Shown one piece after another: positions 1 through 46,949 of a stretch of DNA of 46,949 nucleotides. The stretch is taken from contig JAAFIG010000039.1 of the NCBI GenBank assembly GCA_013298595.1, forward strand, positions 1 to 46,949, read 5' to 3'. The position numbers and the translations under genes were made by a program. The notes beneath the pieces were generated by a model, which was given only the letters and a program-made list of their open reading frames with translations, had not been told where the DNA came from and ran no database searches. The first letter of the stretch is position 1. Every line of letters begins with the position of its first letter. This DNA is from Deinococcales bacterium. GTDB taxonomy: Bacteria > Deinococcota > Deinococci > Deinococcales > JAAFIG01.

Positions 1-2
1 CT

Positions 3-1355
3 GAGGGTACAGGTGGTGTGGCTTTTGCCATCGCATTGGTTTTAGGGATTTGTGCTGCAGGGTTACTGATTGGTATTGCATTAACCAGTGCTTTGGTGGC
101 AACGATCCCTGGTGCTCAGCCGTGGTTTTTACTGATTCTTGTGATTCTTGCTCTCATTCCAATATTACTGATTGCAGTGAGGGTTTTTCCGTGGCTGATT
201 AATTGGTATTACATTTTGCCAGCCATTATGTGTTTGATGGCATTTACGATTTATCCAATCGTCATGACTTTTGGTTACGCATTCACAAACTTTAATTCGC
301 AAAATAATGACCGCCCAGACAGTACCACCGAAATCGCTGTCAAAGTTTCTGGCGCACAGACCATTGAATTGATTGGTGAAGCAAAAATAGAGACATTAGC
401 CTGTCGTCAACCAGGTTGTGTCAATGAGCCAATCGAGTTGCGCTCTGATGCCGAAACAGGCAGACCAGGCAAAACATATTTTGCCTTAAAAGTCGAAGGT
501 AACACCATTACGTTAGCGCCAAATCAAGGTGTGCTACCAACAGATATCACTCGAGTGCGGCGGATTAATCCTGTAGCAAATATCGGTTTTGGAAATTTTC
601 AACAAATTTTTGCTAAAGCTAGTGTGCAACTCTATCCTGTGCTGATTTGGACAGTGGTGTTTGCCTTAGCTACAACTATTATTAATGTGGTGGCTGGTTT
701 GTTATTGGGTATTTTACTGAATAATAAACGATTAAAATTTCGTAATGCGTATCGTTCTATTTTAATTCTGCCGTGGGCAGTACCTGCTGTGATTTCAATT
801 CAACTTTGGGTTGCGCTGCTTAATCAGAACTTTGGTGGCTTAAACCGCTTGCTTGGCTTATTTGGTGGTTTACCCATCCCGTGGCTGAACGATCCGTTAT
901 GGGCTAAAATATCCATTTTGGTTGTGAATTTATGGTTGGGCTTCCCATACATGATGACAGCAACCCTTGGTGCTTTATCCGCCATTCCAGAAGAACTGTA
1001 CGAAGCTGCCGAAGTGGATGGTGCAACCAAACTCGAGCAAGTGCAATTTATTACTTTACCAATGTTACAAGCTGCTTTTACACCAATTATTCTTTCTACT
1101 TTTGCCTTTAATTTTAATAACTTCAGCATTATTTACTTATTAACCCAAGGTGGACCTGCCGAAGTTGGACGTGAAAACACAGCTCGAGCTACCGATATCT
1201 TGTTATCATGGGGTTTTAACACAGCTTTTACGGGCGCAGGTGCTCAGGCATACGGTTTAGCAGGTGCAGTTTCTGTGATTGTTGGTGTGTTGACCGTGGT
1301 TATTTCGTACTTTAATTTCCGCGCAGCTGGTGTGTTTAAGGAGGCAAGCAAATGA
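3..1355 (+). CDS. malF: MalF-type maltose/maltodextrin ABC transporter permease (5' partial)
   Basis: The reading frame is open at the window edge, so the true start lies upstream; a GTG at 18 is in frame but need not be the start. The protein is an inner-membrane permease subunit. Hydrophobic segments come first, then a soluble stretch (about residues 100-185 counted from the GTG) with two Cys, matching the large extracytoplasmic loop that sets MalF apart from short sugar permeases. A second membrane block follows. The ATPase-docking EAA loop is visible as ELYEAAEVDGATKLEQVQF. It overlaps malG by 4 bp (ATGA), so the two are co-translated as partners. The binding protein is presumably upstream, outside the window. 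Maltose/maltodextrin specificity is inferred from architecture only. Confidence 0.88.
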   Translation, partial: EGTGGVAFAIALVLGICAAGLLIGIALTSALVATIPGAQPWFLLILVILALIPILLIAVRVFPWLINWYYILPAIMCLMAFTIYPIVMTFGYAFTNFNSQNNDRPDSTTEIAVKVSGAQTIELIGEAKIETLACRQPGCVNEPIELRSDAETGRPGKTYFALKVEGNTITLAPNQGVLPTDITRVRRINPVANIGFGNFQQIFAKASVQLYPVLIWTVVFALATTIINVVAGLLLGILLNNKRLKFRNAYRSILILPWAVPAVISIQLWVALLNQNFGGLNRLLGLFGGLPIPWLNDPLWAKISILVVNLWLGFPYMMTATLGALSAIPEELYEAAEVDGATKLEQVQFITLPMLQAAFTPIILSTFAFNFNNFSIIYLLTQGGPAEVGRENTARATDILLSWGFNTAFTGAGAQAYGLAGAVSVIVGVLTVVISYFNFRAAGVFKEASK

Positions 1356-2731
1356 GTAGCCCAAATGCAGGTCAAGCATCGCCAATGCAATTTGAGCAAC
1401 GGACTCCGTTGTGGCGAGTTATTCTTGGCTGGAGCCTTTTTATTGCAGTGCTGATTGGATTATATTTTCTTTGGAAAGATTTAAACTCGAGAATTGCTGA
1501 ACCTTCTTTTGCGATTCTTCGCCCCGAAAATGCTGGTTTGATTACCTTTGGTGTGGTGCTTGGTTTGATTGCTTTGGTGTGTGGCACAAGTTATATCGGT
1601 AAAATGATTGGTCAGGCATCAAAAAAGTATGGTCGTGTTTCTTATTTATCGGTGCTGAATGACCAACTGACCCATGTTTTCTTTTGGTTTGTAATTTTAT
1701 TTTCTTTGTATCCAATTTTTTATGTGGTCAGTGCTTCGTTTGACCCATTAAACCGTTTAACCCAAGCCACACTTGGTAAAGCTGAAGAACCTTTGCTGGT
1801 TCGGTCTCGAGTTTTGCCAAGTTTTGAGGGTATGAATTTTGCCAATTATGCCAAGTTGTTTGAAGGTGTCAATATTTATACATGGCAATGGCTGCTGTTG
1901 GTTTTAGCGGGTGTTGGTGTGCTCGGTATTGGTGTTATTTGGGCATTGGTACAACGCAGCGGTGGTGGTCGAGTAGACCCAATGACCAATCGTGCTCGAG
2001 TGATTTCTACGTGGGTGGCAATTTTGGGTGTTTTTGGTTTTTTTGCCACGCTTTCGATAGATCAATTCACGGGTTATAGCAATGCCAGTAAGTTCTTATT
2101 ATGGATTCGCAATACCTTCTTGGTTTCAGGGGCAACTGGTGTTTTAACAGTGATGCTTTGTACCACTACAGGGTACGGCTTAGCCCGATTGCGTTTCCCT
2201 GGGCGTTTCCAGTTCTTAATGTTTCTGATTTTCATTCAAATGTTCCCAGCTTTGCTAGGCTTGGTTGCCATGTATGAACTGATTTATCGCCTTGGCTTAA
2301 CAGGCAGTTTGCCTGGTTTGGTTTTGGCATACACAGGTGGTGCAGTGGCTTTTGGTACTTGGATTTACAAGGGCTATGTCGAAAGCTTACCCGCCAGTCT
2401 CGAGGAAGCGGCTCTGGTGGATGGCTGTACCCGTTGGACAGCTTTTACAAAAATTGTTTTACCACTGTCTGGTCCAATGATGTTCTTTATTTTTCTGATG
2501 CAGTTTGTTGGTACGTATACCGAATTCCTGACAGCCACCGTGCTCATTGCAGGTGCTCAAAATTGGAATGTTGGTGTTGGGCTTCGTTCGTTTGCAACTG
2601 GGCAATTTAGTACAGAATACGGAACCTTCGCAGCAGCGGCTGTACTTGGAGCATTACCGATTGTGATTTTGTATTACAGTTTCCAACAGGTTTTTGTTTC
2701 TGGGCAACTCAGCGGTGGCGAAAAAGGCTAA
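1352..2731 (+). CDS. malG: MalG-type sugar ABC transporter permease, enlarged
   Basis: Second permease subunit of the MalFG pair. The conserved C-terminal half carries the EAA loop (LEEAALVDGCTRWTAFTKI) followed by membrane helices. At 459 aa it is much longer than enterobacterial MalG (about 296 aa). The extra length is an N-terminal block with two hydrophobic segments (about residues 23-85) and an inserted pair of hydrophobic segments (about 175-240) before the core permease domain. The start ATG overlaps the malF stop. A strong terminator follows within 40 bp, so the operon ends here. The assignment as an MalG/binding-protein-dependent inner-membrane component is secure; the sugar is inferred from pairing with a MalF-type partner. 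Confidence 0.87.
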   Translation: MSSPNAGQASPMQFEQRTPLWRVILGWSLFIAVLIGLYFLWKDLNSRIAEPSFAILRPENAGLITFGVVLGLIALVCGTSYIGKMIGQASKKYGRVSYLSVLNDQLTHVFFWFVILFSLYPIFYVVSASFDPLNRLTQATLGKAEEPLLVRSRVLPSFEGMNFANYAKLFEGVNIYTWQWLLLVLAGVGVLGIGVIWALVQRSGGGRVDPMTNRARVISTWVAILGVFGFFATLSIDQFTGYSNASKFLLWIRNTFLVSGATGVLTVMLCTTTGYGLARLRFPGRFQFLMFLIFIQMFPALLGLVAMYELIYRLGLTGSLPGLVLAYTGGAVAFGTWIYKGYVESLPASLEEAALVDGCTRWTAFTKIVLPLSGPMMFFIFLMQFVGTYTEFLTATVLIAGAQNWNVGVGLRSFATGQFSTEYGTFAAAAVLGALPIVILYYSFQQVFVSGQLSGGEKG

Positions 2732-2766
2732 TCATATAAAATTGGGTTAATCAGATGTGCTACTTT

Positions 2767-2797
2767 AACGCCTCGAGTACGCTCGAGGCGTTTTTAT
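2767..2797 (+). terminator. Intrinsic terminator of malFG
   Basis: An 11-bp perfect stem (AACGCCTCGAG / CTCGAGGCGTT) with a TACG loop is followed by a T-rich tract. Both stem arms contain the genome-wide CTCGAG palindrome, so that motif supplies over half of the stem. The remaining DNA up to the next gene at 2960 shows nothing recognisable. Confidence 0.9.
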
Positions 2798-2959
2798 TTG
2801 GCAATAGTTCAGAACATTTCTTGACGCAAATGCAAATTATGTCATTTTACGAGGTATTGTGATATTGCTGTGAAGTAGCTACGCACACACGACGCAACTA
2901 GTCACGATGACACGAAACTCAAATGCTCTATAAAAGCGAAAGATCAAAAACATTCTGAA

Positions 2960-3955
2960 CTATTTTTGTTTGGCAATGCTAATAAAATCTGCCAGCATGT
3001 CATAGGCTGTTTCTGGTGCGCCAGAATCTCTCGAGATCAGTTCAATAGCAGGTAGAACATCAAATTCAAAACGTGCCAGCATGTCAACGCCTGTCACTGT
3101 TGCCAGAATACCATCCACTTGGGTTGGAACAACTCGAGCTGAAATACCACCAGTGGCTGTGCGTTCAAGGGTTGCTAGTAAGCGGTAAGGTCTGCCCTCG
3201 AGTTTCGCGGTTCGGACTTGCTCGGGGGTGAGTGTGCGAATACCAATCACTTGGCAATCCTCGAGTTTAAGATTGGCTTTCATGATGGTGTTTGCCAGCC
3301 CAACAATTTTTACTGCACTGTCCCAACCATCCACATCCATACTTGGATCGGTTTCGGCAACCCCCATGTCTTGGGCGCGTTTAACACCTTCTTCGTAACT
3401 TTGCCCATTTTCCCAGGCCTCGAGAATTACAGTGCTGGTGCTGTTTGGTAAGCCTTGAAAGCGTTGTAAGGTGGCAACAGGTAAACATTCGCGGAGCAAA
3501 CTATAAATTGGGCTACCACCCATAAATGTGGCTTCAAAACGAAACTTCACCTGATTTGCTGTTGCTAATGCCTCGAGTCGAGCCGCTGCATGAACCAACG
3601 GACCTTTATTTGCTGTGACAACATGAATGCCACAACTCAGGGCTGCTTCGATAAAACCAATCGCAGGTTGTCCAGAAAAAGGCTCGAGACTTGATGCTTC
3701 AAATAATACAGTGGCTTTTGCTGTTTCGAGTAAATCAGGTACATTTTTTATATTTGGGTTAGCAAGTATGTTCCCATCTAGCAAAGCCTGAATATCTAAA
3801 CCTGTCGCATCGGCAATAAAACCCATGCGTCTCGAGTAAACACCTGTGATTTGAAATTCAATACCTAATGCCCTAAGTTCGTTGCGTTTATGCTCGAGTA
3901 ATTGCACTAAAGCCCGATGAACGTTACCAAAACCAATCAGAACAAGATTATGCAC
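2960..3955 (-). CDS. Homoserine dehydrogenase family protein (divergent paralogue)
   Basis: Short-form (no ACT domain) homoserine dehydrogenase-like oxidoreductase, 331 aa. The N-terminal Rossmann motif is LIGFGNVH, where the last Gly of the usual GxGxxG is His. A TANKGPL segment (family cofactor/substrate region) is present, as is TDPSMDVDGWDSAVK with the conserved Asp and Lys of the homoserine-binding pattern DPxxDxxGxDxxxK. A second, more canonical homolog lies at 26655-27671, so this copy may have a specialised substrate. The GTG start is chosen because a TAAACT -10 box sits 7 nt upstream, overlapping the stop of the preceding gene. Homoserine oxidation is likely but not certain. Confidence 0.75.
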   Translation of the reverse strand: MHNLVLIGFGNVHRALVQLLEHKRNELRALGIEFQITGVYSRRMGFIADATGLDIQALLDGNILANPNIKNVPDLLETAKATVLFEASSLEPFSGQPAIGFIEAALSCGIHVVTANKGPLVHAAARLEALATANQVKFRFEATFMGGSPIYSLLRECLPVATLQRFQGLPNSTSTVILEAWENGQSYEEGVKRAQDMGVAETDPSMDVDGWDSAVKIVGLANTIMKANLKLEDCQVIGIRTLTPEQVRTAKLEGRPYRLLATLERTATGGISARVVPTQVDGILATVTGVDMLARFEFDVLPAIELISRDSGAPETAYDMLADFISIAKQK

Positions 3956-3962
3956 ACTGCTT

Positions 3963-3968
3963 AGTTTA
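3963..3968 (-). promoter_or_regulatory. -10 box (TAAACT) for a leaderless transcript
   Basis: On the minus strand TAAACT lies 7 nt before the GTG at 3955, a distance that places the transcription start at the start codon. It overlaps the stop codon of the gene ending at 3966. The same TAAACT-N6/7-start arrangement recurs at five or more other genes here. Confidence 0.5.
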
Positions 3969-4505
3969 ACGGATTTTAATCCGTACTCCGAGGCTAATCA
4001 GCGCATACCACTGCACAGGGAGTAAATACCCAGCTTCAACCTCGAGGTACACACCACCAATGCCAGGGTACTGCACCACTAAACCAGCCCCAATATCTAA
4101 GCCAACCCCAAAGGGCAATGCCCATAAACCACCACCAGCATTAGAAATTGTGCCAATCATTATTGTTACACCAAGTTTGGCATAAGCGCCTAAGACATCG
4201 GATGCCACACCAACCAAAGGTAGCAAACTCTGACCGATCAGTGCTTCGGAGCGCAGTCCAAAAACCCAACCTGTTTTTCCTGTACCACCAAAAAATCCAA
4301 GGGCGTTTAAGGCATCAGAAGCAAAAAACACATGAATCCGACCTCCGCTAATATAGGTTGGTTCGGTAGGTAAATACGCGCCCGCTTGAATTCCAGGCAT
4401 ACCAAAAAAATTGGTCAAACCAACTTCGGCAGAAAAACTTTGAGCCGCTGCACTCGAGCTAAGTAGACTAATACAAATCAGTAGTAGACGCAATTTTTTA
4501 AACAT
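3966..4505 (-). CDS. Exported hypothetical protein
   Basis: I do not recognise a named family. An upstream in-frame start would add 40 residues, but the ATG at 4505 gives a clean Sec signal peptide (MFKKLRLLLICISLLSSSAAA, cleavage near AAA-Q), so I use that start (179 aa). The mature part is rich in Gly and alternating hydrophobic residues (for example the stretches around GGGLWALPFGVGLDIGAG and GVYLEVEAGYLLPVQ) and ends LISLGVRIKIR. This would suit a small outer-membrane beta-barrel, but that is inference. It is directly upstream of the homoserine dehydrogenase paralogue on the same strand. No clear Shine-Dalgarno precedes the chosen ATG. Confidence 0.6.
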   Translation of the reverse strand: MFKKLRLLLICISLLSSSAAAQSFSAEVGLTNFFGMPGIQAGAYLPTEPTYISGGRIHVFFASDALNALGFFGGTGKTGWVFGLRSEALIGQSLLPLVGVASDVLGAYAKLGVTIMIGTISNAGGGLWALPFGVGLDIGAGLVVQYPGIGGVYLEVEAGYLLPVQWYALISLGVRIKIR

Positions 4506-4636
4506 ATCGTGCAGTGTACTCGAGAAGATGTGCAAGAAGATGATGAAACCCAAATAAAAGTGAGGAAATAGCTCCGACATAAAAGTTTGGGAGCAGCTTC
4601 GACTAAAGTTTGGGTGCATTGACAAGAAATTGTGAT

Positions 4637-4642
4637 TAGAAT
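4637..4642 (+). promoter_or_regulatory. -10 box (TAGAAT) for a leaderless transcript
   Basis: TAGAAT is 6 nt before the ATG at 4649. A TTGACA at 4619-4624 is only 12 bp upstream, too close for a standard -35, so the -35 element is unclear. Confidence 0.45.
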
Positions 4643-4648
4643 TGCAAC

Positions 4649-5368: not shown

Positions 5369-5370
5369 AT

Positions 5371-13030: not shown

Positions 13031-16000
13031 TTAGGCTTTGGCTAAACCAAAATTACCAAATTCTTGCAGCCCAACAAGAAAATCGGTTTGTAAAGGCGAA
13101 ACATACTCGAGTTTCGCTACCAAGGCTTCTTCGCAGATAAAACCCTCCCACGCTTTGGCTGCCTCAAGCATATCGCCTTGCAAGTTGAGACGCAAAATAA
13201 TTTTATCAGACACTTCTAAACCACTATCTTTACGGGTTTGCTGAATTTCACGCAGCAAATCCCGTGATAAACCCTCGAGAATTAAATCCTTGGTCAGTTC
13301 AGTCGTAAAAGCCACCAAAATGCCATCTTGTTCGACAGCCGCAAATCCTTCGGGCGATTTTGCATCCACCAGCACATCAGCAGGCTCGAGTTCAAAAGCC
13401 CCATCAGCCGTCTGAAGCGTAAAGTTCAAACCCTTGTTCACACTCGAAACAACAATACCTGCATCCCCTTCGGAGAGCGCTGCACGAATAGCTGGGATGT
13501 TCTTGCCGTACTTACGCCCCAGTGTTGGCAAATTTGGTTTTAAGTTATAGGAAACCAAATTTGTACCTTCCTCGAGTAATTTCACCGCTTTAACATTCAG
13601 TTCTTCGGCAATGGTTTCCGAAAATCGCTCAAGAGCGACGTTATCGGAAATTTCTCGAGCGCGGAGCATAACTTGCGAAAGTGGCTGGCGCAATTTGAGA
13701 TTCGCTTGCCCGCGAGCTGCCCGACCCAAATCTACAGTGCGAATCACAGCTTGCATTTCTGCCACGAGTTTCTGGTCAAAACGACTCGAGCTAAACTCTG
13801 GAAAACTGCACAAATGCACACTTTCAGGCGCAGCAGCGTCCACGCCTCGCACCAAATTCTGATACAAACTTTCGGACAAAAACGGCGTGAACGGCGCAGC
13901 TAACTTGGTCACAGTCACCAGTGCCTCGTATAACGTGGCATAAGCACTCGAGTCCACATTTCCATCCTGCGTCCAGAAACGCCGACGATTGCGCCGTACA
14001 TACCAATTACTTAACTCCTCAACAAATGCCTCGAGTGCCTTACCGCCCCGACGCGCATCGTACTTATTGAGGGCATCCGTTACCGTATCAATCAAACCCT
14101 CGAGTCTCGAGATCAACCACCTGTCAATCTCTGGGCGATCCTCGAGTTTAGGTGCAACAGCCAAATCAGGATGATCGAGGTTGGCATACAAGACAAAAAA
14201 GCTGTACACATTCCAAAGTGTATTGATAAAACCACGTTGACCCTCGGCAATTAACCGCTCCGAGAAACGCTTGGTGTCGCCCGGTTCTGAACCTGTGAAC
14301 ATATACCAACGCACACTATCGGCACCAAACTTATCAAAAGCAGGCAAAGGCTCGACCACATTGCCTTTAGATTTCGACATCTTCAAGCCTTTTTCATCGA
14401 CCAAATGCCCGAGACAAATCACATTTTTATACACAGGTTGGTCGTAAAGCAGCGTACCAATCGCGTGCAAACTATAAAACCAACCTCGAGTTTGGTCAAT
14501 TGCCTCGCAAATATAATCAGCAGGAAAATGCTTATCAAACGTCTCGAGCGTCTCTTTACTGCGAGCCACACCATCAGCATCTAATAACAAATGCCACTGG
14601 GCATACGGCATCGCACCAGAATCAAACCAGACATCCAGCACTTCAGGCACTCGAGCATACTTCTTCCCATTCAATTCAAAAGTCGCATCATCAATATACG
14701 GACGATGCAAATCCTCATTGGCAAGTTTTTTACCCATCAAAGCCTCGAGTTCCTGCACCGAGCCAACACAGACGTAATCCTTACCATCCTCCGAAACCCA
14801 AAAAGGCAACGGCGAACCCCAGTAACGCTCACGGCTAATACCCCAATCGACATTCCCCCCGAGCCACTTACCAAAACGCCCATCCTTAATATGCTCAGGT
14901 ACCCAATTGATTAACTGATTGGTTTCCGACATGCGTTTCGACATTTTCTCGGTACGAATAAACCAACTCGGACGAGCAAAATACAAAATCGGATCACCAG
15001 TACGATCATGAAAAGGGTAACGGTGCAACAAATTCCCCGCGTGATACATCACACCACGATCCCTCATGGCTTTGATTAAACCCTTATCGGCATCCTTAAA
15101 GAACTTGCCACGCTCATCTGTGACCTGCATGATGCCATTGCCATTGGTACCAAAACACAACACGCAATCGTAAGCCTTACCCACCTCGAGGTCTTCAGCA
15201 CCATACACAGGCGCTTGATGAGCCAAACCAGAACCATCCTCATCACCAACAAAATCGGCAAGCACAACAATATGCGCTCGAGGATGCGGCTTGCCATCGG
15301 GCGAGGCAAGCCCCGCCCCTACGGCTGTGGAACGTGGTGCAGCGAATTTCTCAGCGTTCAAATCCAATTCCTCAAAAACCTCTGGGAATGGCTGGGTGTA
15401 CTGCCAAAAGTGCATTAACTCGCCTTTGAAGGTTGCCAGAACCTCGAGTGGCGGGGCTTCTTTGTTCAAACTCGAGATACGCTCAACAGCATTCTTGGCA
15501 ATGACAATATGACCCATTGGGCTACTGCACAGCACATACTCGAGATTTGGATTCACCGCTGCTAAGGTATTACTCGGCAAAGTCCACGGCGTTGTCGTCC
15601 ACACCAGTAACGCAGGTTGCTCGAGCACAGCCAAATCAACCCCTTGCGCCTCGAGACTTGCTTTTAACGCAGGTGGTGTTGTCTCGAGTTTCACGGGCAA
15701 ACGCACATACACACTTGGATCATTGACCATCTGATAACTGTTCTCATCACCCAATTCTGCCTTGGACAAGGTACTACCAATACGCGGCGAAACAGGTACA
15801 ACCTTAAAATCACGCTCGACCAAACCCTTATCCCACAAGCGCTTGAGCAGATTCCAAACCGATTCGATATACTCGTTTTTATACGTCACATACGCATTCT
15901 CGAGATCAACCCACATGCCAAGGCGTTCGGTAAAATAATTCCAATCCTGAATATTACTAAACACCGACTCACGACACAACCGATTAAACTCCTCGAGTTC

Positions 16001-16339
16001 AGCGCGGCTAGAACCATGATTCCGCCCCTTCATACCCATTTTCTTTTCAACCGCAATTTCAACAGGCAGACCATGCGTATCCCAACCACCCTTACGGGTC
16101 ACATGGAAACCCTTCATGATCTTAAAACGCGGAAAAATATCCTTAAAAGCTCGAGCCAAAACGTGGTGCATAGCAGGTTGACCATTTGCCGTCGGTGGAC
16201 CTTCATAAAAAACAAACTCACCAGACGGCGCGGGCTTTGCCTCGGTTTGACCAAACACATCTCGAGCCTTCCAGAACTCGAGAACAGACGCTTCGACATC
16301 CTTATAACTGACTTGTGGACTGACTTCATTAAATTTCAT
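13031..16339 (-). CDS. ileS: Isoleucine--tRNA ligase carrying an in-frame palindromic repeat
   Basis: Class I aminoacyl-tRNA synthetase of 1102 aa. The HIGH equivalent is in PPTANGQPAMHHVLAR (residues 56-59 read AMHH), and the KMSKS loop is GLKMSKSKGNVV. Class-typical WDTHGLPVE, DWGISRERYWGSPLPFW and VLDVWFDSGAMPYA are present, with the CP1 editing domain between (VWTTTPWTLPSNT, GSGLAHQAPVYGAED). The 'HH' active-site form and large C-terminal part fit the eukaryote-like IleRS2 clade, often mupirocin-tolerant (family knowledge). ATG 16339 is preferred over the in-frame codon at 16414 because the extra residues run through repeat copy C. Residues 340-347 (VGAGLASP) are encoded by a palindromic repeat. 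Regulation: see the T-box at 17642-17924. Confidence 0.97.
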   Translation of the reverse strand: MKFNEVSPQVSYKDVEASVLEFWKARDVFGQTEAKPAPSGEFVFYEGPPTANGQPAMHHVLARAFKDIFPRFKIMKGFHVTRKGGWDTHGLPVEIAVEKKMGMKGRNHGSSRAELEEFNRLCRESVFSNIQDWNYFTERLGMWVDLENAYVTYKNEYIESVWNLLKRLWDKGLVERDFKVVPVSPRIGSTLSKAELGDENSYQMVNDPSVYVRLPVKLETTPPALKASLEAQGVDLAVLEQPALLVWTTTPWTLPSNTLAAVNPNLEYVLCSSPMGHIVIAKNAVERISSLNKEAPPLEVLATFKGELMHFWQYTQPFPEVFEELDLNAEKFAAPRSTAVGAGLASPDGKPHPRAHIVVLADFVGDEDGSGLAHQAPVYGAEDLEVGKAYDCVLCFGTNGNGIMQVTDERGKFFKDADKGLIKAMRDRGVMYHAGNLLHRYPFHDRTGDPILYFARPSWFIRTEKMSKRMSETNQLINWVPEHIKDGRFGKWLGGNVDWGISRERYWGSPLPFWVSEDGKDYVCVGSVQELEALMGKKLANEDLHRPYIDDATFELNGKKYARVPEVLDVWFDSGAMPYAQWHLLLDADGVARSKETLETFDKHFPADYICEAIDQTRGWFYSLHAIGTLLYDQPVYKNVICLGHLVDEKGLKMSKSKGNVVEPLPAFDKFGADSVRWYMFTGSEPGDTKRFSERLIAEGQRGFINTLWNVYSFFVLYANLDHPDLAVAPKLEDRPEIDRWLISRLEGLIDTVTDALNKYDARRGGKALEAFVEELSNWYVRRNRRRFWTQDGNVDSSAYATLYEALVTVTKLAAPFTPFLSESLYQNLVRGVDAAAPESVHLCSFPEFSSSRFDQKLVAEMQAVIRTVDLGRAARGQANLKLRQPLSQVMLRAREISDNVALERFSETIAEELNVKAVKLLEEGTNLVSYNLKPNLPTLGRKYGKNIPAIRAALSEGDAGIVVSSVNKGLNFTLQTADGAFELEPADVLVDAKSPEGFAAVEQDGILVAFTTELTKDLILEGLSRDLLREIQQTRKDSGLEVSDKIILRLNLQGDMLEAAKAWEGFICEEALVAKLEYVSPLQTDFLVGLQEFGNFGLAKA
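15299..15322 (-). repeat. Palindromic repeat copy B, inside the ileS coding sequence
   Basis: Minus strand reads GTAGGGGCGGGG-CTTG-CCTCGCCC, identical over 24 nt to intergenic copy D (17189-17212). It is in frame and encodes VGAGLASP, residues 340-347 of IleRS. It falls just before the conserved AHIVVLADFVGDEDGSGLAHQAP segment of the editing domain, where a surface loop can tolerate extra residues. Confidence 0.8.
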
Positions 16340-16356
16340 AACAACCCCATTTTTTT

Positions 16357-16416
16357 GTAGGGGCGAATCTTGTATTCGCCCAGTGAGACGTAATAAATTG
16401 ACCTTTTCTTGCAATC
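16357..16416 (+). repeat. Palindromic repeat copy C with tail, 5' of ileS
   Basis: Core GTAGGGGCGAAT-CTTG-TATTCGCCC (16357-16381) forms a hairpin. It is followed by a tail GTGAGACG-(2 nt)-ATAAATTGA...TTTTCTTG-n-AATC shared with copy D. It is a direct repeat of D, about 830 bp apart, and the AT-rich gene 16442-17050 lies between them. It ends 18 bp before the ileS start, so the hairpin is in the ileS 5' leader. Confidence 0.75.
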
Positions 16417-16441
16417 TACCAAAATTAGATAAACTTTAAAT

Positions 16442-17050
16442 TTACAGATTTAGATCAAAGTTTGCGTAGTCACTTTTTACTGCTTTTGACAATAAAAATA
16501 ATGAATACACAGATAAAAACAATGAAACAAAACTTCGATAAAAATAATTACTTTTATCAAATTGAACAAAAAATTCAGAATAATAATTTAATGTATTCGA
16601 GAAAAAAATAGAGTTGCCAGAATTATCCATATAAGCTATTACAAAATTAACAATAGAAAGAACTATTGAAAAAATCAAAATAGTCTTGAATCTATACTTA
16701 AAAATATATAACCCTAGTAAAATTAAATAAACAGGTAAATAAAAATTTATAATCACTTCTCTTAGGTAAACCATATTATAATCAGAGTCAGTAAATTTTA
16801 ACTTTGTATCTGACTTTTTTTCTGTATACATCGTTTCTATGACAAAAGTAGATTGCCCAAATTCTCTTTCAAATTCTTTTGTAAAATTCGGATGGATTAT
16901 TTTCTTCAAGACAAATAGCTCATCATTACCCCGTAAACTTATTTCAACCGTGGTATAGCCAGAAAAAACAGAAAACAAGGAAAAAATAGATGTAATCGAA
17001 AATATGAATAAAATCCATAGTATTGTTGTTGATCGAATTCTGGTAAACAT
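16442..17050 (-). CDS. AT-rich hypothetical membrane protein
   Basis: A 202-aa protein of unknown function. An N-terminal hydrophobic segment (residues about 9-30) is followed by a Lys/Glu-rich soluble part (about 35-100) and three further hydrophobic segments (about 105-125, 130-148, 175-195). ATG 17050 is chosen over an in-frame TTG 12 nt earlier because GGAGGA lies at the right distance before it. Base use is far more AT-rich than the neighbours, and CTCGAG, present every 100-200 bp elsewhere, is absent. It sits between direct repeat copies C and D. These signs suggest recent acquisition. It lies between the isoleucine T-box and ileS, on the same strand. Confidence 0.65.
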   Translation of the reverse strand: MFTRIRSTTILWILFIFSITSIFSLFSVFSGYTTVEISLRGNDELFVLKKIIHPNFTKEFEREFGQSTFVIETMYTEKKSDTKLKFTDSDYNMVYLREVIINFYLPVYLILLGLYIFKYRFKTILIFSIVLSIVNFVIAYMDNSGNSIFFSNTLNYYSEFFVQFDKSNYFYRSFVSLFLSVYSLFLLSKAVKSDYANFDLNL

Positions 17051-17106
17051 TAAATCCTCCAATAGTTAAAGCTAACTTGGCTTATCTCGAGAAATGCCGT
17101 CTTAGC

Positions 17107-17131
17107 AGGGTGACACAAGGGTCGCCCCTAT
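17107..17131 (-). repeat. Palindromic repeat copy E (opposite orientation)
   Basis: Minus strand reads TAGGGGCGACC-CTTG-TGTCACCCT with a following CTAAGACGG, matching the family pattern TAGGGGCG...CTTG...CGCCCTGTGAGACG with a few changes. It lies about 60 bp from copy D and in the reverse direction. Confidence 0.6.
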
Positions 17132-17188
17132 GGTTGATTGGTTTTGAATTATCAAAACATTGTGCATAAACAGTCCTTTCGATTTTCC

Positions 17189-17250
17189 GTAGGGGCGGGG
17201 CTTGCCTCGCCCTGTGAGACGATATAAATTGAAAATTTTCTTGAATCACA
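17189..17250 (+). repeat. Palindromic repeat copy D with tail
   Basis: Core GTAGGGGCGGGG-CTTG-CCTCGCCC, then TGTGAGACGATATAAATTGA and TTTTCTTGAATC. The core is identical to the copy inside ileS, and the tail matches copy C. The 255-bp gap between the two hypothetical genes is mostly made of copies D and E. Confidence 0.75.
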
Positions 17251-23275: not shown

Positions 23276-25492
23276 CTATGGGTTAGCAGCTTTCCAGCGT
23301 TGCAGTAACGTAAGTAACGCTTTTGGCAAGTTGCTCGGTTCGGCTTTGCCTGCTTGATCGCGTTCGTTTAAGCCATGACAAGATGTACAGACACGGATTT
23401 CACCTGGTTGAAAACTGACCCAGTAGCGTTCACGGACAACAGCTGTGTTATTTGGGCTGGTTAATTGCCAAGATAAGGCGCGTCTAGCAGGCACAAAAGC
23501 AGCCACTGAGCCATCGCTGGCAACAGCAAAACTACTATTGCTAGGGGTGAAATCAGCATAGCTCGAGTTGCTGCTCAGGGCTTTAGTGTCATGGAGTGGT
23601 TGGGCAAGAACGCGTCTGCCAGCTCGAGGTTGGGTTGTGCCGCCCATGCCGCGAATCAGGTCAGCTTGAAAGATTTGTAATTGTGAAACATCATAAATTT
23701 TCTGACCAGCCGCGTAGTTTTTGCTTAAACTTTGTACACCATTGGGGACTCTGAGGTTAAATGGTTGTTGCAGATCGGCTTCGTCTCGAGTGGTGACATT
23801 GCGAACAATTGCCAGTGCAAGGTTATTGCTGGTTAAGTATTGTTTTAAAGCAGTTTCATTAACCCCTGTTTGGTTAAAAACTTGTTGCTCGAGTGTAGGG
23901 GTTGGCATGGTGCGTTTTGTTGGTCTGGTTCGAGCCACCACTTCAACAGGATTTAATTCCCATAAATTGCCGCTATAAGTAATTTTATTATCTGGACTCC
24001 AAAACTCGAGGTTTTTGCTGATGCCATTGGTCAGGGGTTGATCGGCTACCCAAACACCATTGCTATTTTGTTTTAGGGTTTTTAAGCGGTAGGCGTAACG
24101 TGAACTGGTGAGGCTACCTGCTTGTTTATCAGCTCGAGTTTCTGGGCTATGGGCAACAATCAGTTCGCCATTGGCAAGTGGTAATGGGTTGCGGTACATA
24201 CCAGAGTGGTTTGGATTGGCTGTTGCACCATCTGGGGTTGCGCCAGCGGTGGCATCAGCTGTGATATCCGTAATTTGCATCTGATTAACAGTTACAGTTG
24301 GCGCAGCGTTGAGTTGCACAATTTGACCACTACCATGTGTACCAAACTCAGGCGCATTGACCCCAAAATACAGACCAGGACGGCTAGGGTCTTCTTTTAT
24401 TTGGAACATGTTCTCAATATAATTTTGGTTCTGACTTAGATTAGGTGGCGAAAATGTTTGTAAAACCGCATCATCAGTTAAACTCGGTTCGATATAACCT
24501 CGAGCATCGCCGCTCATCAGCTCGTGCCGACCTGCATGGTTCAGTGTTTCGCTTTCAGTACCATCCTCAAAGATCATCCAAGGAAAAAACTGATTAAAAT
24601 CATGTTTGTTTAAATTAGTACCCGCAATCTCTTGATCCACTCGAGGTTCTGGAAAAACTTCGCTACGGTTATTTAAGCGGTTGGCATTGGCGGCTTCGCT
24701 GGCATAATTAAATGTTTTGTAGTCAGCGCCAGCGTATTTGTCGGCATCGGCTTGTTGATCGCGTTTTAAGTGATCCCATTGGGTAAAAATAATTCTGCCA
24801 AAACTATCGAGTATCGGTGTGAAATTACCACTGGGTGCATGGTTGAGTAAACGTAAATCGGCAGTGCTTGGATTTAAACTCCATAAACCCGTATTGGTGG
24901 CAGTGGATTCGTACTCATCGAGTTGAGGATATAAATGACTCGAGTTATCTCGAGGGCGGTCTGATGTAAAAATAATACGATCATCGCTGCCATAAATAGG
25001 TGAAACATTATTGTACGGTGGTTGCCCAGCAATTTTGGTAATCACGGGGGTATCTGTTTCGCCTAAGCCCGTAATTTCGTAGAGTTGCCAAAAGTAATCT
25101 TGGTATTCGTATTGTTTACTAGGTGCGCCTACCACCATGCTAAAAACAGCTTTTTTGCCATCCCAATAGACACTTGGGTCGCGCACTGCAATGGCTTTTG
25201 CACCTTGGAAACCACTGGCAACACCAAAACCAGCACTGGCTGTTAAGTTTTTGAGTTTATCATTGGCATAGCGAATCCATAAATCACCACCTCGAGCCAC
25301 GGATTCCATGCTGGCTAAATGATTACCAAAAGTTGAGCCAATGGTGGCGAAATCGGCTGCTATTGGTACTTGTGTGACAAATAAAATTGGGTTTTTGCCA
25401 TTGATAACAAGGGGTATTTCAGTGGATTTTGAAACACCTGTACAAGCCACTGCCAAAATGGTTGCAAGCAATAACGAATAATGTCTTTTCAC
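23276..25492 (-). CDS. HzsA-like lipoprotein with C-terminal c-type haem motif
   Basis: A 738-aa exported protein. N-terminus MKRHYSLLLATILAVACTG has a lipobox (Cys17). The middle contains propeller-like segments such as VSPIYGSDDRIIFTSDRPR and FTPILDSFGRIIFTQWDH, typical of proteins related to the alpha subunit of hydrazine synthase (HzsA family). Near the C-terminus is one CxxCH (VCTSCHGLNERDQ), so one haem c should be attached. No anammox genes are nearby, so hydrazine synthesis is not implied; HzsA-related proteins of unknown role are widespread. The GTG start is supported by TAAGAT 6 nt upstream. Confidence 0.8.
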   Translation of the reverse strand: MKRHYSLLLATILAVACTGVSKSTEIPLVINGKNPILFVTQVPIAADFATIGSTFGNHLASMESVARGGDLWIRYANDKLKNLTASAGFGVASGFQGAKAIAVRDPSVYWDGKKAVFSMVVGAPSKQYEYQDYFWQLYEITGLGETDTPVITKIAGQPPYNNVSPIYGSDDRIIFTSDRPRDNSSHLYPQLDEYESTATNTGLWSLNPSTADLRLLNHAPSGNFTPILDSFGRIIFTQWDHLKRDQQADADKYAGADYKTFNYASEAANANRLNNRSEVFPEPRVDQEIAGTNLNKHDFNQFFPWMIFEDGTESETLNHAGRHELMSGDARGYIEPSLTDDAVLQTFSPPNLSQNQNYIENMFQIKEDPSRPGLYFGVNAPEFGTHGSGQIVQLNAAPTVTVNQMQITDITADATAGATPDGATANPNHSGMYRNPLPLANGELIVAHSPETRADKQAGSLTSSRYAYRLKTLKQNSNGVWVADQPLTNGISKNLEFWSPDNKITYSGNLWELNPVEVVARTRPTKRTMPTPTLEQQVFNQTGVNETALKQYLTSNNLALAIVRNVTTRDEADLQQPFNLRVPNGVQSLSKNYAAGQKIYDVSQLQIFQADLIRGMGGTTQPRAGRRVLAQPLHDTKALSSNSSYADFTPSNSSFAVASDGSVAAFVPARRALSWQLTSPNNTAVVRERYWVSFQPGEIRVCTSCHGLNERDQAGKAEPSNLPKALLTLLQRWKAANP

Positions 25493-26577: not shown

Positions 26578-26642
26578 GGGTTTTGATTTTGCGTTGTCTT
26601 GAACAAAATTGCAGCCTTGGCGTTTTGGTATACCAAGCGGGT

Positions 26643-26648
26643 TATACT
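26643..26648 (+). promoter_or_regulatory. -10 box (TATACT) of hom
   Basis: TATACT is 3 nt before one ATG (26652) and 6 nt before the next (26655). The 6-nt spacing matches the other leaderless candidates, favouring ATG 26655. A TGGTATACCA palindrome lies just upstream (26625-26634), a possible operator between the divergent azlC and hom genes. Confidence 0.5.
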
Positions 26649-26654
26649 GCCATG

Positions 26655-27671
26655 ATGAAACGCGTTCGTATCGGCATGATTGGCAGTGGCACCGTGGGTA
26701 GCAGTGTGCTTGGTTTACTCGAGGCTCGTAAAAGCTTGTTTGAATCTCAAGGGTATAAAGTCAAAGTTTTACCCGTATTAGTCCGAGACCCAAGTAAAAC
26801 CCGAGATAATGTGCCGTTAGGTACACAATTTACGGCTGATGATAAAGTGCTCGAGGATGCTGATATTATTTTTGAAAGTATGGGCGGTACAGGTAAAGCC
26901 CTCGAGTTAGTGCAATCGCAATTGCAAGATGGCAAAATTTTAATCACAGCCAATAAAGCTATGCTGGCAGAACGCTGGGATGTTTTAAAGCCGTACACCA
27001 TGAACGGACAAGTTTACTGCGAAGCCAGTGTCATGGCGGGTACACCTGTGCTCGGACCCTTAACAGGTACTCTGCGCTCGAGTAACACCCTCGAATTACA
27101 TGCGATTTTATCGGGTACTTGTAATTATATTTTGACCCGTATGGAAGATGGCGCAACCTACGAAGCTGCCTTAGCCGAAGCCCAAGCCAAAGGCTATGCC
27201 GAAGACCCTCCCACACTGGATGTCGCGGGTACAGATGCAGCCCATAAACTCTGTGTGCTTGCTCGAATTACTGTAGACCCTAATTTTGCGTGGGCAGATA
27301 TTCATACTCGAGGTTTAGAGGGGCTTTCGAGTCAGCGGGTTCTCGAGGCTGTACGTAATGGTAAACGCGTCAAATTGGTGGGTAGTATCGTGCCAAAAAA
27401 TGGTCAATGGCATGCCACAGTACGACCAGTTCTGTTAGACGCAGAGCACCCCTTAGCCCAAAGCGCCTCGAGCCGAAACACAATGCTGTTTCATGGCGAT
27501 GCCAGTGGCATTGTGATTGTTCAAGGCGGTGGCGCAGGTGGTTTAGTGACTGCCAGTGCTATGGTTGGCGATCTGATAGATCACTTTGCAGGTGTTACGG
27601 GGCATCAACCAAGTCCAGAAGCCACTCGAGTGCCACAAAATCATACGCCAGAGGTTTTTGCAGAACTTTAA
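26655..27671 (+). CDS. hom: Homoserine dehydrogenase
   Basis: A 339-aa short-form enzyme without an ACT domain, reducing aspartate semialdehyde to homoserine for Thr, Met and Ile. Rossmann motif RIGMIGSGTVGSSV, TANKAML segment, HAILSGTCNYILT (substrate-binding), and EDPPTLDVAGTDAAHKL with the catalytic Asp and Lys. The final part keeps HGDASG and GPGAG-like GGGAGG for cofactor contact. The ATG at 26655 (MKRVRIG) is preferred to an upstream in-frame start at 26583, which would lie in the azlC promoter region. A divergent paralogue is at 2960-3955. The stop overlaps the convergent CAP gene by 4 bp. Confidence 0.95.
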   Translation: MKRVRIGMIGSGTVGSSVLGLLEARKSLFESQGYKVKVLPVLVRDPSKTRDNVPLGTQFTADDKVLEDADIIFESMGGTGKALELVQSQLQDGKILITANKAMLAERWDVLKPYTMNGQVYCEASVMAGTPVLGPLTGTLRSSNTLELHAILSGTCNYILTRMEDGATYEAALAEAQAKGYAEDPPTLDVAGTDAAHKLCVLARITVDPNFAWADIHTRGLEGLSSQRVLEAVRNGKRVKLVGSIVPKNGQWHATVRPVLLDAEHPLAQSASSRNTMLFHGDASGIVIVQGGGAGGLVTASAMVGDLIDHFAGVTGHQPSPEATRVPQNHTPEVFAEL

Positions 27672-28258
27672 GGTGTTCTGCCCACAGCCATGATCCAATA
27701 CGATTTACTCGAGCTTGCCACTGTTACCTTGGCAAAACCTGCGCGGTTAAAATCGTCATCCATTGCCACTTGGCAATGCCCAAACGAACTGGTCAACCAA
27801 CGGTTGAGAACTTCGGTTTGGTTAGGGAAATCAAATGCCATGACTTCGCCCCAAGCTGTACCTGAAAAACCAGCTGCCCCTGCTCGGTTAATCGGTGTGC
27901 CATCACCAGCGCCATTGTGTGGATCGAATGCCAAGGCATTGGGGTTGCCTGGTTGGGTAAAACCCTCGGGATGATTTTTGACTAAGTAATTGAGATGCGC
28001 TAAAGCCGCTGTGGTTAAAGCAGTATCGCGCAGTAAGACTCGAGAATTGGTATTAAAGGTTTTGGCTGGAAAACTTGGACCACTCGCTAAACAAGCCACA
28101 GCTGTGGTGACAGCATTTTGCCGTTTGCCATTAATTAAGGCTAAAAAGGCATCTTGTTCAGCAACCGAGAGTTCATTGGGTATTGTGATTTCGGGCAAGC
28201 GGTAAACTGGGCAAGCGGTCAGCACAGCCACCAAACCAAGCAACAAAAACTTTTTCAT
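27668..28258 (-). CDS. CAP/SCP-domain lipoprotein
   Basis: A 196-aa lipoprotein: MKKFLLLGLVAVLTAC (Cys16). The mature part is a CAP (SCP/YkwD-like) domain: LALINGKRQNA, LTTAALAHLNYLVKNHPEGF (the AxxHxxxM-like helix carrying the first His), WGEVMAF (the conserved Glu), VLNRWLTSSFGHCQVAMDDDFNRAGFAKV (second His region) and SYWIMAVGR at the end. Bacterial CAP proteins are exported and mostly of unknown function. TAGACT lies 7 nt before the ATG (28266-28271 on the plus strand), another leaderless candidate. Confidence 0.88.
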   Translation of the reverse strand: MKKFLLLGLVAVLTACPVYRLPEITIPNELSVAEQDAFLALINGKRQNAVTTAVACLASGPSFPAKTFNTNSRVLLRDTALTTAALAHLNYLVKNHPEGFTQPGNPNALAFDPHNGAGDGTPINRAGAAGFSGTAWGEVMAFDFPNQTEVLNRWLTSSFGHCQVAMDDDFNRAGFAKVTVASSSKSYWIMAVGRTP

Positions 28259-37691: not shown

Positions 37692-37697
37692 AAAACT

Positions 37698-40960: not shown

Positions 40961-40970
40961 ATTGGTAAAT

Positions 40971-41020: not shown

Positions 41021-41111
41021 ACAGGCATCTGAAAAATAAGACATGCTTCTCGAGTCATCAGGGCAGAGTCTCAGATCTATCAGTATTACGCTGATAGCAC
41101 GGAGGTTTATT

Positions 41112-42377: not shown

Positions 42378-42422
42378 AGTCTCGATCTTTATCTAGGGTA
42401 TGTTGCGTACCCATCCTCCTCC

Positions 42423-42445
42423 GGAGCGAGGACATCCCTCGCTCC
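42423..42445 (+). repeat. GGAGCGAGG hairpin between the binding protein and GH76 genes
   Basis: A 9-bp perfect stem (GGAGCGAGG / CCTCGCTCC) with a 5-nt loop. No T-run follows. Positioned just after the binding-protein gene, where such hairpins often protect the 3' end and raise binding-protein over downstream expression. Shares its core with 12845-12875. Confidence 0.55.
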
Positions 42446-42466
42446 ACACTTGTTTTGGAAAAAACC

Positions 42467-43933: not shown

Positions 43934-44946
43934 CTGCCACATTGATTGGTGCAGCCGAACAAGCCAACATTGCCCATGATGCTGTGATTCGTGTTTTCTG
44001 GAACAAAGAACAACAAATCTTTGATTGGCGCTCGCCACTCGAGCCAACCGATTTATTTCATTATTGGTGGATGGCTCATGCACTGGATTGCCTTGTGGAT
44101 GCTTTTGAACGTGACCAACAAATGGTGCATTGCGCTCGAGCTAAAGCCTTGCTTGAATCGGTCAGAAAACGCAACCAAGCACTGGGTTTTAGCAATTGGC
44201 ATAACGAATTTTATGATGATATGCAGTGGATGGCACTCGCCTGCTTACGGGCTTTTGATTCATGGCAAGACGAGTATTTTCTCGAGATAAGCCAGTCCTT
44301 GTGGGCAGATATTCGTTTAGGGTGGAGTGATATTTGTGGTGGCGGAATTGCTTGGAAAAAAACCCAACTCGATTATAAAAATACGCCAGCCAACGCGCCT
44401 GCTGCGATTTTGGCAGCTAGGTTATTTCAGCGATTTGGACAACAAAGCGATTGGCATTGGGCACAAAAAATTTTTACTTGGCTCGAGCAGCATTTACTTT
44501 CAAAAGACGGTTTGGTGTGGGATGGTATGAACCGTACAGGAGCGATGCAAACCGATAAAAACTGGTTATTTACGTATAATTTTGGCACCATGATCGGGGC
44601 TGCGCTCGAGTTGAAACGCCCAGATATCGCAAAGAAAGTCTTTTACGCAACCCTTGAGTACCTAACAGATACCCAAAAGATTCTGCCTGATGAAGGCAAC
44701 GGCGATGGTGGATTGTTCAAAGGTATTTTTATTCGCTATGTCACACCACTAGCATTAGAACATGCAGCAATTGCCGATTGGTTACGCCACAATGCCCATA
44801 GCTGTTGGCAAATTCTCGAGTCAAATAATCAGATTGCAGGAACCACTTGGACACAAAGCGCACAAAGCCCAACTGATCTTTCCAATGCCCTCAGTGGTCT
44901 GATGCTGCTTGAAGCTCAGGCTAAACTCGAGCGTCAAAACAGGTAA
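43930..44946 (+). CDS. Cytoplasmic GH76-family glycosidase
   Basis: A 338-aa enzyme without a signal peptide, otherwise like the upstream GH76 catalytic domain: DLFHYWWMAHALDCLVDAF, HNEFYDDMQWMAL with the catalytic Asp pair, CGGGIAWKK, NTPANAPAAILAARL, FTYNFGTMIGAALEL, DEGNGDGGLFKGIFIRY. It has no carbohydrate-binding domain. Likely finishes imported alpha-1,6-manno-oligosaccharides after the secreted paralogue and the ABC system (inference). Translationally coupled to the secreted GH76 by ATGA overlap. Confidence 0.88.
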   Translation: MTATLIGAAEQANIAHDAVIRVFWNKEQQIFDWRSPLEPTDLFHYWWMAHALDCLVDAFERDQQMVHCARAKALLESVRKRNQALGFSNWHNEFYDDMQWMALACLRAFDSWQDEYFLEISQSLWADIRLGWSDICGGGIAWKKTQLDYKNTPANAPAAILAARLFQRFGQQSDWHWAQKIFTWLEQHLLSKDGLVWDGMNRTGAMQTDKNWLFTYNFGTMIGAALELKRPDIAKKVFYATLEYLTDTQKILPDEGNGDGGLFKGIFIRYVTPLALEHAAIADWLRHNAHSCWQILESNNQIAGTTWTQSAQSPTDLSNALSGLMLLEAQAKLERQNR

Positions 44947-44950
44947 ACTA

Positions 44951-46063
44951 ATGATTATGAACCCACCCCGTTACGAACGTATCATCTCGAGCTTACTCGA
45001 TGAGATTCGCAACGGGCGTTTACGCCCAGGCGATAAAGTACCAAGTGAGCATAATCTGGCTCAACAACATGCGGTCAGTCGGATTACATCTCGTCGTGCC
45101 CTCGAAGAACTGGCGCGGATGAATGTGGTTGAACGCACTCAAGGTCGAGGGACGTTTATTGCCCAAAACGCTTTACAAAAAACTAAACCTGCTACCAACG
45201 AACAGATGACGATTGCTTTATTGTTACCAGATTTCTCAGATGCGTTCGGTTTACAGATGGTCTATGCGATCGAAGCACGCTGTGCTGAACTGGGCTGGTA
45301 CTGCATTATTAAACGCACTTTTGGGCAGCAAAATACCGAAGAAACAGCCATCACTTCTTTGCTTGAGCGTGGTATTGATGGTTTGATTGTTTTTCCAGTG
45401 CATGGCGAGCACTACAATCCTGTGCTGCTAAAAGCTGTGCTTGAGGGTTTACCAATTGTGCTGGTAGATAGGTATTTACCCGGAATTCCTGCGATGGCTG
45501 TGGTCAGTGATAATCGTGGGGCAGCGCAGCAATTAACCGAGCATCTGATTCAACTTGGGCATAGCCAAATTGCGTTTTTATCACCACCTGTTAAGCACAC
45601 CAGTGCTTTAGAAGAACGGCTCGAGGGGTATAACACAGCACTGAGTAATCATCATTTAACCCCGCTACATTTGACTGAACTGACCGCGACTTTACCTGCT
45701 CGGTTAAAACCAGAAAATATTGCGACTGATCAACAAGCACTCCAACAATTTCTCGAACAACACGCAGTTACTGCCTTTTTTTGTGCCGAATACAACTTAG
45801 CGCTCGAGTTACAGCAATTACTGAGTGCCAGTGGTCGGCGTATTCCTGAAGATTGCAGCATTGTTTGTTTTGATGCGCCAAGCAACCCGCTCGAGCCACC
45901 ACGTTTTACGCACATTCGCCAAGATGAACAAAGTATTGGACGCAATGCAGTTGATTTTATTCATGCTAAACACCAAGGTCAGCCACCAACGGAGTATCGC
46001 AATGTCATCCCATGTTTATTGCTCGAGGGACGCAGCACTAAAAAAGTCATTTTGAAAAAATAA
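44951..46063 (+). CDS. GntR/LacI-hybrid transcriptional regulator (AraR-like)
   Basis: About 370 aa. N-terminal GntR winged helix (RYERIISSLLDEIRNGRLRPGDKVPSEHNLAQQHAVSRITSRRALEELARMNVVERTQGRGTFIA) joined to a LacI/periplasmic-binding-type sugar sensor (TIALLLPDFSDAFGLQMVYAIEA, GIDGLIVFPVHGEHYNPVLLKA, LPIVLVDRYLPGI, VVSDNRGAAQQLTEHLI, LGHSQIAFLSPP). This is the AraR architecture. It lies within the GH76 locus, so it should control it in response to a mannan breakdown product. Either ATG 44951 or ATG 44957 is possible; TAAACT ends 7 nt before the second. TTGTTATAT sites at 40971-40992 and 46111 are operator candidates. Confidence 0.9.
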   Translation: MIMNPPRYERIISSLLDEIRNGRLRPGDKVPSEHNLAQQHAVSRITSRRALEELARMNVVERTQGRGTFIAQNALQKTKPATNEQMTIALLLPDFSDAFGLQMVYAIEARCAELGWYCIIKRTFGQQNTEETAITSLLERGIDGLIVFPVHGEHYNPVLLKAVLEGLPIVLVDRYLPGIPAMAVVSDNRGAAQQLTEHLIQLGHSQIAFLSPPVKHTSALEERLEGYNTALSNHHLTPLHLTELTATLPARLKPENIATDQQALQQFLEQHAVTAFFCAEYNLALELQQLLSASGRRIPEDCSIVCFDAPSNPLEPPRFTHIRQDEQSIGRNAVDFIHAKHQGQPPTEYRNVIPCLLLEGRSTKKVILKK

Positions 46064-46282
46064 GTTAAGGATTGGTTATTTAAGTGTGCGTAAAGGCTTA
46101 TAACGCTGTTTTGTTATATCTCCTAGAATTGATGTTTAGCACAGAATTTTTAAGATTTTATTGTAGAGGCGAGCGATTGTCTTCGTTAGGTAAACCGAGA
46201 ATCAAGAAGGCGTACCTGCCCACCTTGAGCAACCCCTTGTTTGCTTTAGCCGATTGAACTCGAGCCACCTTTTTGGAGTCCC
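46064..46282 (+). promoter_or_regulatory. Leader of the permease gene with TTGTTATAT site
   Basis: Gene-free. It contains TTGTTATAT (46111-46119), identical to sites before the binding-protein gene, and a degenerate GTAGAGGCGAGCGATTG segment (46163-46179) vaguely like the palindromic repeat family. TGGAG precedes the ATG at 46283. No clear -35/-10 pair found. Confidence 0.35.
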
Positions 46283-46949
46283 ATGCAAGCAAACCATAGC
46301 AGTTCAAAACGCTCGAGATTATTGCGCCATGAAAACCGTATGGCGTACTGGTTTATCAGCCCTGCAATGCTGTTATTTTTGATTTTTACGGTTTCCCCTG
46401 CGGTTATTGCATTGTTTCTCAGTTTCACCAATTACGATATTCTCTCGCCCATCAAATGGATTGGTTTAGCCAATTACGAACGATTACTCACTGATGATTT
46501 ATTTGCTCGAGGTATCCGCAATGTTGCGTTTTACGCTTTATTGTATGTGCCTAGTATTGTGGTTTTTTCGGTTTGTATTGCGTTAGCCTTGAATCGTAAG
46601 CGTCCAGGTATGGCATTGTTTCGCACCCTTTTTTACTTGCCTGGTGTAACCTCGAGTATTGCGGCAGCTACGGTTTGGAGTTGGATGTTGCAAAAAAATT
46701 ATGGGGTTGTGAATCAAGGTTTAGCCTTTTTTGGTATCGAAGGTCCCAATTGGCTTGCCAGTAGCGACACCGCCATGTATGCCATTGTGATTGTGACTGT
46801 TTGGCAAGGACTGGGTGGCAATGTCATTGTTTATTTGGCTGGCTTACAAGGCATTCCGCCGTATTTGTACGAAGCGGCTGCTTTAGATGGTGCAACGCCA
46901 TTGCAGCAATTCTGGTTTATCACACTGCCTGGTTTACGAACCACCACAT
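46283..46949 (+). CDS. Sugar ABC transporter permease, UgpA/MalF type (3' partial)
   Basis: Runs off the window end; 222 codons present. Starts MQANHSSSKRSRLLRHENRM, then YWFISPAMLLFLIFTVSPAV (first TM), LSFTNYDIL, GLANYERLL, and further helices. The EAA loop is LYEAAALDGATPLQQFWFITLP. The large periplasmic loop of true MalF is absent, so it is the short UgpA/LacF-like form, different from the malF at the other end of the window. It should pair with the substrate-binding protein at 41112. TGGAG lies 5 nt before the ATG. Confidence 0.9.
   Translation, partial: MQANHSSSKRSRLLRHENRMAYWFISPAMLLFLIFTVSPAVIALFLSFTNYDILSPIKWIGLANYERLLTDDLFARGIRNVAFYALLYVPSIVVFSVCIALALNRKRPGMALFRTLFYLPGVTSSIAAATVWSWMLQKNYGVVNQGLAFFGIEGPNWLASSDTAMYAIVIVTVWQGLGGNVIVYLAGLQGIPPYLYEAAALDGATPLQQFWFITLPGLRTTT

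Follow-up and report, generated by a model that had tools for sequence, protein, structure and literature searches.

Abundance of CTCGAG in the window and the source genome

The stretch of DNA analysed here (the window, 46,949 bp) is contig C33 of G000, a genome of 4,582,226 bp in 68 contigs that belongs to an uncultured family in the order of Thermus. The element under study is the hexamer CTCGAG. We find that CTCGAG is a highly iterated palindrome (HIP) of the Thermus/Meiothermus order, which is extreme in this uncultured source family. The window carries 277 copies, compared with 3.99 ± 2.13 in dinucleotide shuffles (maximum over 100 shuffles, 11), and the second most frequent palindromic hexamer reaches 36 copies. 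Genome-wide, 27,159 copies of CTCGAG were counted versus 15 of the reversed control, GAGCTC. The hyper-abundance reported by a first-pass annotation of the window is thus real and stronger than claimed; we found no report of it in the open-access literature. The sites and their most conspicuous arrangements in the window are:

1-46949, no strand: 277 CTCGAG sites with a mean spacing of 167 bp and a largest gap of 809 bp
2762-2795, + strand: hairpin that resembles a terminator and follows malG; two CTCGAG lie in its stem (2772-2777 and 2782-2787), and a T run comes next
13106-14035, no strand: eight CTCGAG within ileS (13031-16414, - strand)
14099-14111, no strand: closest CTCGAG pair in the window, 7 bp apart, an arrangement that is rare genome-wide
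16277-17091, no strand: longest CTCGAG-free interval of the window, with 809 bp between the starts of the flanking sites

The eight sites in ileS (at 13106, 13274, 13385, 13571, 13654, 13785, 13947 and 14030) are those previously counted between 13,001 and 14,040, and CTCGAG does build the stem of the malG terminator, which reads CGCCTCGAG-TACG-CTCGAGGCG-TTTTT around 2770-2795. Its proposed part in a T-box Stem I helix is not supported, as Rfam gave no T-box in the window at the gathering threshold, nor any at E<=5 in the region upstream of ileS.

Whole-genome counts in this study are pattern searches, and composition and spacing statistics come from 20-kb stretches, for example 447 kb of G000 (L189-L208). 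On these 447 kb, with the motif masked, Markov models of orders 1, 2 and 3 predicted 27, 38 and 51 copies, and 2,539 were observed. An order-4 background, which had been named as a possible explanation of the count, predicts 240 copies in the unmasked window (310*310/400), close to the observed number, because every CTCGAG adds to the counts of CTCGA and TCGAG from which the prediction is made. The check is valid only with the motif masked, and then about 9 copies are predicted (33*33/123) versus 277.

CTCGAG is a bare 6-bp motif without flanking consensus, and the only palindromic hexamer that is strongly favoured in G000. Most others are avoided in the window and the G000 samples, among them TTCGAA, TGCGCA, GGCGCC and CCGCGG. 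Shorter palindromes are also scarce: GGCC occurs once in the window and 16 times in 447 kb, where 1,373 are expected (about 85-fold avoidance), and CCGG 87 times versus 912 expected (about 10-fold).

Distribution across the Thermus order

The order survey comprised 111 genomes, and a class-wide count gave the identical 111. All four genomes of the source family, which represent three genera, contain 26,600-28,200 CTCGAG each (5.9-6.5 per kb; GAGCTC, 4-15), that is, one site per about 170 bases or 50-90-fold above chance. This density is uniform although the sampled GC content ranges from 0.45 to 0.58, and it excludes the idea that the enrichment is limited to the window. In the neighbouring family f2, genomes G005 and G006 reach 6-8 per kb and G004 3.6 per kb, and the Meiothermus-type genera g10-g12 hold about 1.4-3.4 per kb, an enrichment of roughly 10-fold. 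Genus g13 is near background (0.6-1.1 per kb), and G007 of family f2 falls to 0.3 per kb, with 6 sites in a 40-kb sample versus 15-22 expected, which amounts to avoidance. Six CTCGAG of G007 are clustered on contig C2 (1365-1748) at steps of 90, 47, 90, 66 and 90 bp, which suggests a repeat array. We assign g13 to Thermus because its member G051 has a protein that is almost the same as PDB 1ULT, a T. thermophilus entry, and infer that g12 is Meiothermus.

Among named sequences, CTCGAG is the top palindrome on a Meiothermus taiwanensis plasmid (113 versus 13.7 expected), occurs 45 times on T. thermophilus pTT27 (25 expected) and only 8 times on a Deinococcus plasmid (18 expected). At 80 control loci across the bacterial tree, taken from an isoleucyl-tRNA synthetase (IleRS) scan and mostly from distant phyla, it stays at or below about twice the expectation. 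Viral contigs with CTCGAG triplets were set aside, since they are mostly GC-rich and often raised in GAGCTC too, which marks them as codon-driven. The enrichment is therefore order-wide, and strongest in the source family and in genus g5 of family f2.

Genes, spacers and the protein imprint

The motif is equally dense in constrained and free DNA: genes and spacers hold 5648 and 5922 CTCGAG per Mb in G000, and 6161 and 5785 per Mb in G002, which belongs to a different genus. All three codon frames are hit, as the first-pass annotation had noted, with 1280, 585 and 435 sites compared with about 113, 61 and 19 in synonymous shuffles. The frame that encodes Leu-Glu leaves a trace in the proteins. 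In both G000 and G002 no dipeptide is more over-represented than Leu-Glu, and 65% and 76% of the Leu-Glu pairs, respectively, are encoded as CTC-GAG, where codon use elsewhere predicts about 2% and 5%. In G030, a Meiothermus-type genome, this frame accounts for 84% of the in-gene sites. The Leu-Glu excess is 2.3-2.55 in samples from the source family and 1.4-1.85 in Meiothermus-type samples, but only 1.0-1.1 in those from G007, Thermus and Deinococcus. Since the excess tracks CTCGAG across the order and vanishes with it, the pressure for the motif appears to alter amino acids.

Conservation, turnover and spacing of the sites

A comparison of G000 with G001 (20.8 kb aligned at 74% identity) showed that 64% of CTCGAG sites are conserved, while other hexamers reach 20%; for G002 and G003 the figures are about 50% and 12-14%. 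The rise in identity spans exactly six bases. Between G000 and G001, a site is either fully kept or heavily altered, as single-base departures affect 6% of CTCGAG sites but 34% of background hexamers, and losses and gains are balanced (50 versus 56). Genome-wide, the transition neighbours of CTCGAG are about two- to threefold elevated, as expected from the decay of a large CTCGAG pool, and several transversion neighbours lie under expectation. CTTGAG, the C-to-T product at the inner CpG, is no more elevated than TTCGAG, the product at the outer C, so that a decay signature of 5-methylcytosine (m5C) is missing.

The regular spacing that the window alone suggested (coefficient of variation 0.78) was not upheld on 447 kb, where the distribution is near-Poisson except for short-range repulsion and site-free islands. 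Repulsion is seen in the occupancy of available positions as a function of the distance to the next site. In G000, occupancy is 0.40 at 13-25 bp, 0.55 at 25-50 bp, 0.62 at 50-75 bp and 0.69 at 75-150 bp; in G002, the corresponding values are 0.46, 0.60, 0.63 and 0.70. Pooled over 13-50 bp versus 50-250 bp, it is 0.498 versus 0.665 in G000 (p=1.4e-22) and 0.550 versus 0.681 in G002 (p=1.4e-13), with a drop in each frame. Neighbours nearer than about 50-75 bp are thus disfavoured in two genera. The near/far ratio of CTCGAG is 0.79, compared with a mean of 1.13 (standard deviation 0.26) for 38 control codon pairs, whose counts are small and whose spread is wide.

Stretches poor in CTCGAG are AT-rich, for instance a polysaccharide cluster at 70-83 kb of contig C34 in G000 (L207/L208; GC 0.27-0.40), which is nearly devoid of the motif. 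Such islands are probably acquired DNA, and low CTCGAG density could serve to flag acquired DNA in the source family.

Search for a methyltransferase

Methyltransferases (MTases) were searched with Pfam PF07669, PF22837, PF00145 and PF01555 over the 111 genomes and then clustered; their specificity is not readable from sequence. No MTase of these four families is common to the four family genomes, which are 91-94% complete (enzymes matching only PF02384 and D12 enzymes were not searched). The window itself (C33) has no match to any of the listed C5, gamma or beta MTases, in agreement with the first reading.

Three enzymes were considered as drivers and rejected. The first, defined by PF22837 (the C-terminal domain of M.Eco57I), is frequent in Meiothermus-type genomes and absent from the source family. 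In family f5 it accompanies a higher CTCGAG/GAGCTC ratio (p=0.009, phylogeny not corrected for), and within g12 the two are uncorrelated (p=0.48). This M.Eco57I-type MTase of about 555 aa is present in 14 of the 18 g12 genomes and in nine f5 genomes (L076-L082, L085-L105); its gene contexts differ between the two loci read (L076 and L079), and the downstream partners of plasmid-borne relatives match no Pfam family. The second, a conserved beta-class MTase (PF01555, about 290-320 aa) that almost every g10-g12 genome carries among conserved neighbours (L141, L151, L152, L156-L167), is likely solitary and vertically inherited, and was not found in the source family. The third, the C5 enzyme L109, has HhaI-type relatives and sits in genomes avoiding CCGG; its role is more likely in a restriction system.

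Discussion

Our results place CTCGAG beside the highly iterated palindromes of cyanobacteria. To our knowledge, HIP1 (GCGATCGC) has had no agreed function since its description in 1995. Like HIP1 and the alternates GGCGCC, rCCGGy and GCsGC, CTCGAG is palindromic, spread genome-wide over genes and spacers, lineage-wide and lost in single species, so that the likeness to HIP1 drawn by the first-pass annotation, which extends to all codon frames, is right as a description. It also shows two features of the HIP class (Elhai 2015), namely genome-wide over-representation beyond any other oligomer and a lineage-wide range with single-member losses. It is not HIP1 itself, as its sequence differs and its hosts are relatives of Thermus, in another phylum. 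HIP1 density is 0.3-2.7 per kb, with a maximum of 2,700 per Mb (PMC4390886), and the 5.9-6.5 per kb of the 6-bp CTCGAG are more than twice that maximum. Moreover, CTCGAG carriers have no common MTase of the searched families, and they show short-range repulsion and a measured dipeptide effect. By analogy, CTCGAG thus appears to act as a HIP of another phylum, one that adds new properties.

The graded series of genomes, from roughly 10-fold enrichment in culturable Meiothermus-type bacteria to near background in Thermus and loss in G007, makes the driver searchable by comparison and testable in laboratory strains. The case is also relevant to codon, phylogenetic and binning methods, as it shows that amino-acid sequence can be biased by a DNA motif spread over the genome (Leu-Glu 2.3x).

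Of the three drivers originally proposed, a nucleoid or DNA-binding site fits best, a classical uptake signal poorly, and a solitary methyltransferase is least supported. Three features together speak against a simple mutational bias and, by inference, for a locally recognised, density-limited site: the motif is as dense in constrained as in free DNA, its density does not change with GC, and close sites repel each other. A site of the DNA-binding or nucleoid type is the best match to the constant density with short-range repulsion. We therefore favour, tentatively and at somewhat less than even odds, the reading that CTCGAG is the recognition site of a conserved sequence-specific, putative DNA-binding factor, and that its density is controlled. 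Such a trans-acting reader would probably be dimeric and may need a CTCGAG no more than about 100 bp away over almost the whole chromosome, where it could package, protect or mark self DNA. Density would be held by diminishing returns, and Thermus and the species G007 may have lost or changed the reader. A more elaborate version is possible but more doubtful: a methylation-independent system would read CTCGAG every ~170 bp as a self or packaging mark, hold a density set point and reshape the proteome, and would have been lost in Thermus and at least one other lineage.

Several observations weigh against this recognition-site reading. The sites show no helical phasing, G030 lacks short-range repulsion in its 400-kb sample, and repulsion was not significant in a small first sample of other family genomes. 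Crowded sites are no less conserved between G000 and G001, and the replacement of lost sites by nearby ones is not significant, both in a comparison of only 140 sites. No candidate reader protein emerged from the MTase and nuclease families searched.

The alternative that survives best, though unlikely, is a HIP linked to methylation as in Elhai's model, in which CTCGAG would be the target of a solitary methyltransferase, with near-misses turned into CTCGAG, and the site protected, by methyl-directed mismatch repair or some other reader of the methyl mark. MTases for CTCGAG exist in the XhoI and PaeR7I types. All HIP-bearing cyanobacterial genomes also encode an MTase that can act on the palindrome (PMC4390886), a correlation rather than a defining feature of the class, and the f5 association of PF22837 points in the same direction. 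However, the four family genomes share no MTase of the searched families, PF22837 is absent from them and uncorrelated with CTCGAG within g12, and the m5C decay signature is lacking. Halorubrum, with m5C at CTCGAG (PMC8112702), nevertheless carries only 560 sites, and the saturation of Elhai's repair ratchet near one site per kb (PMC4390886) contrasts with about six per kb in the source family. XhoI/PaeR7I restriction-modification systems recognize the identical sequence, but restriction sites are normally avoided, like GGCC and CCGG in G000, whereas CTCGAG is strongly over-represented; as G000 avoids most other palindromes, CTCGAG is unlike an ordinary restriction site.

Quite improbable is a DNA-uptake or self-DNA signal, by which competent cells would favour CTCGAG fragments and recombination would raise the motif through molecular drive. 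Relatives of Thermus are naturally competent, and Thermus itself, which reportedly takes up DNA without sequence preference, lacks the enrichment, in keeping with this idea. Scarce near-misses, site-free acquired islands and protein-level effects also fit drive, and the range of repulsion would fit if transforming fragments were about 100-200 bp. The uptake signal sequence (USS) of Haemophilus and the DNA uptake sequence (DUS) of Neisseria are likewise very abundant and conserved, with few near-misses and effects on protein composition, but they are longer, non-palindromic, flanked by a consensus and about six times sparser. Known uptake signals consist of a 9-10-bp core and extended flanks and occur about once per kb (in part after PMC1939737), unlike a bare palindrome at six per kb.

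A context-free mutation or repair bias that makes CTCGAG as a site without function would act in all frames and spacers, as seen, but is very unlikely, given that constrained and free DNA carry the motif at one density whatever the GC and that such a bias would not be expected to produce short-range repulsion; a specific six-base product requires a specific reader anyway. A recombination hotspot of the Chi type, recognised by a nuclease like RecBCD/AddAB, is largely disfavoured and scarcely probable, for although Chi sites are likewise abundant, short, octamer-like and chromosome-wide, and short ones can be dense, Chi is directional, which a palindrome cannot be, and the AddA/AddB/RecB-type nuclease PF12705 (PDDEXK_1) was not detected in G000, G001 or G003, which are all among the four densest complete genomes (two weak matches in G002).

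Other features of the window

A repeated element with a GC-rich inverted stretch lies upstream of ileS (17105-17240); it is not a T-box by Rfam and is possibly a hairpin resembling a miniature inverted-repeat transposable element. Four related copies occur in the ileS region of G001 (L209), and an exact 26-bp piece lies inside ileS in both G000 and G001 (15299-15324). A 738-aa protein encoded at 23276-25492 (- strand) matches the middle domain of hydrazine synthase alpha (PF18582, E 1.3e-8), with no obvious anammox context, and a 23-bp tandem repeat occupies 4570-4618 in two copies.

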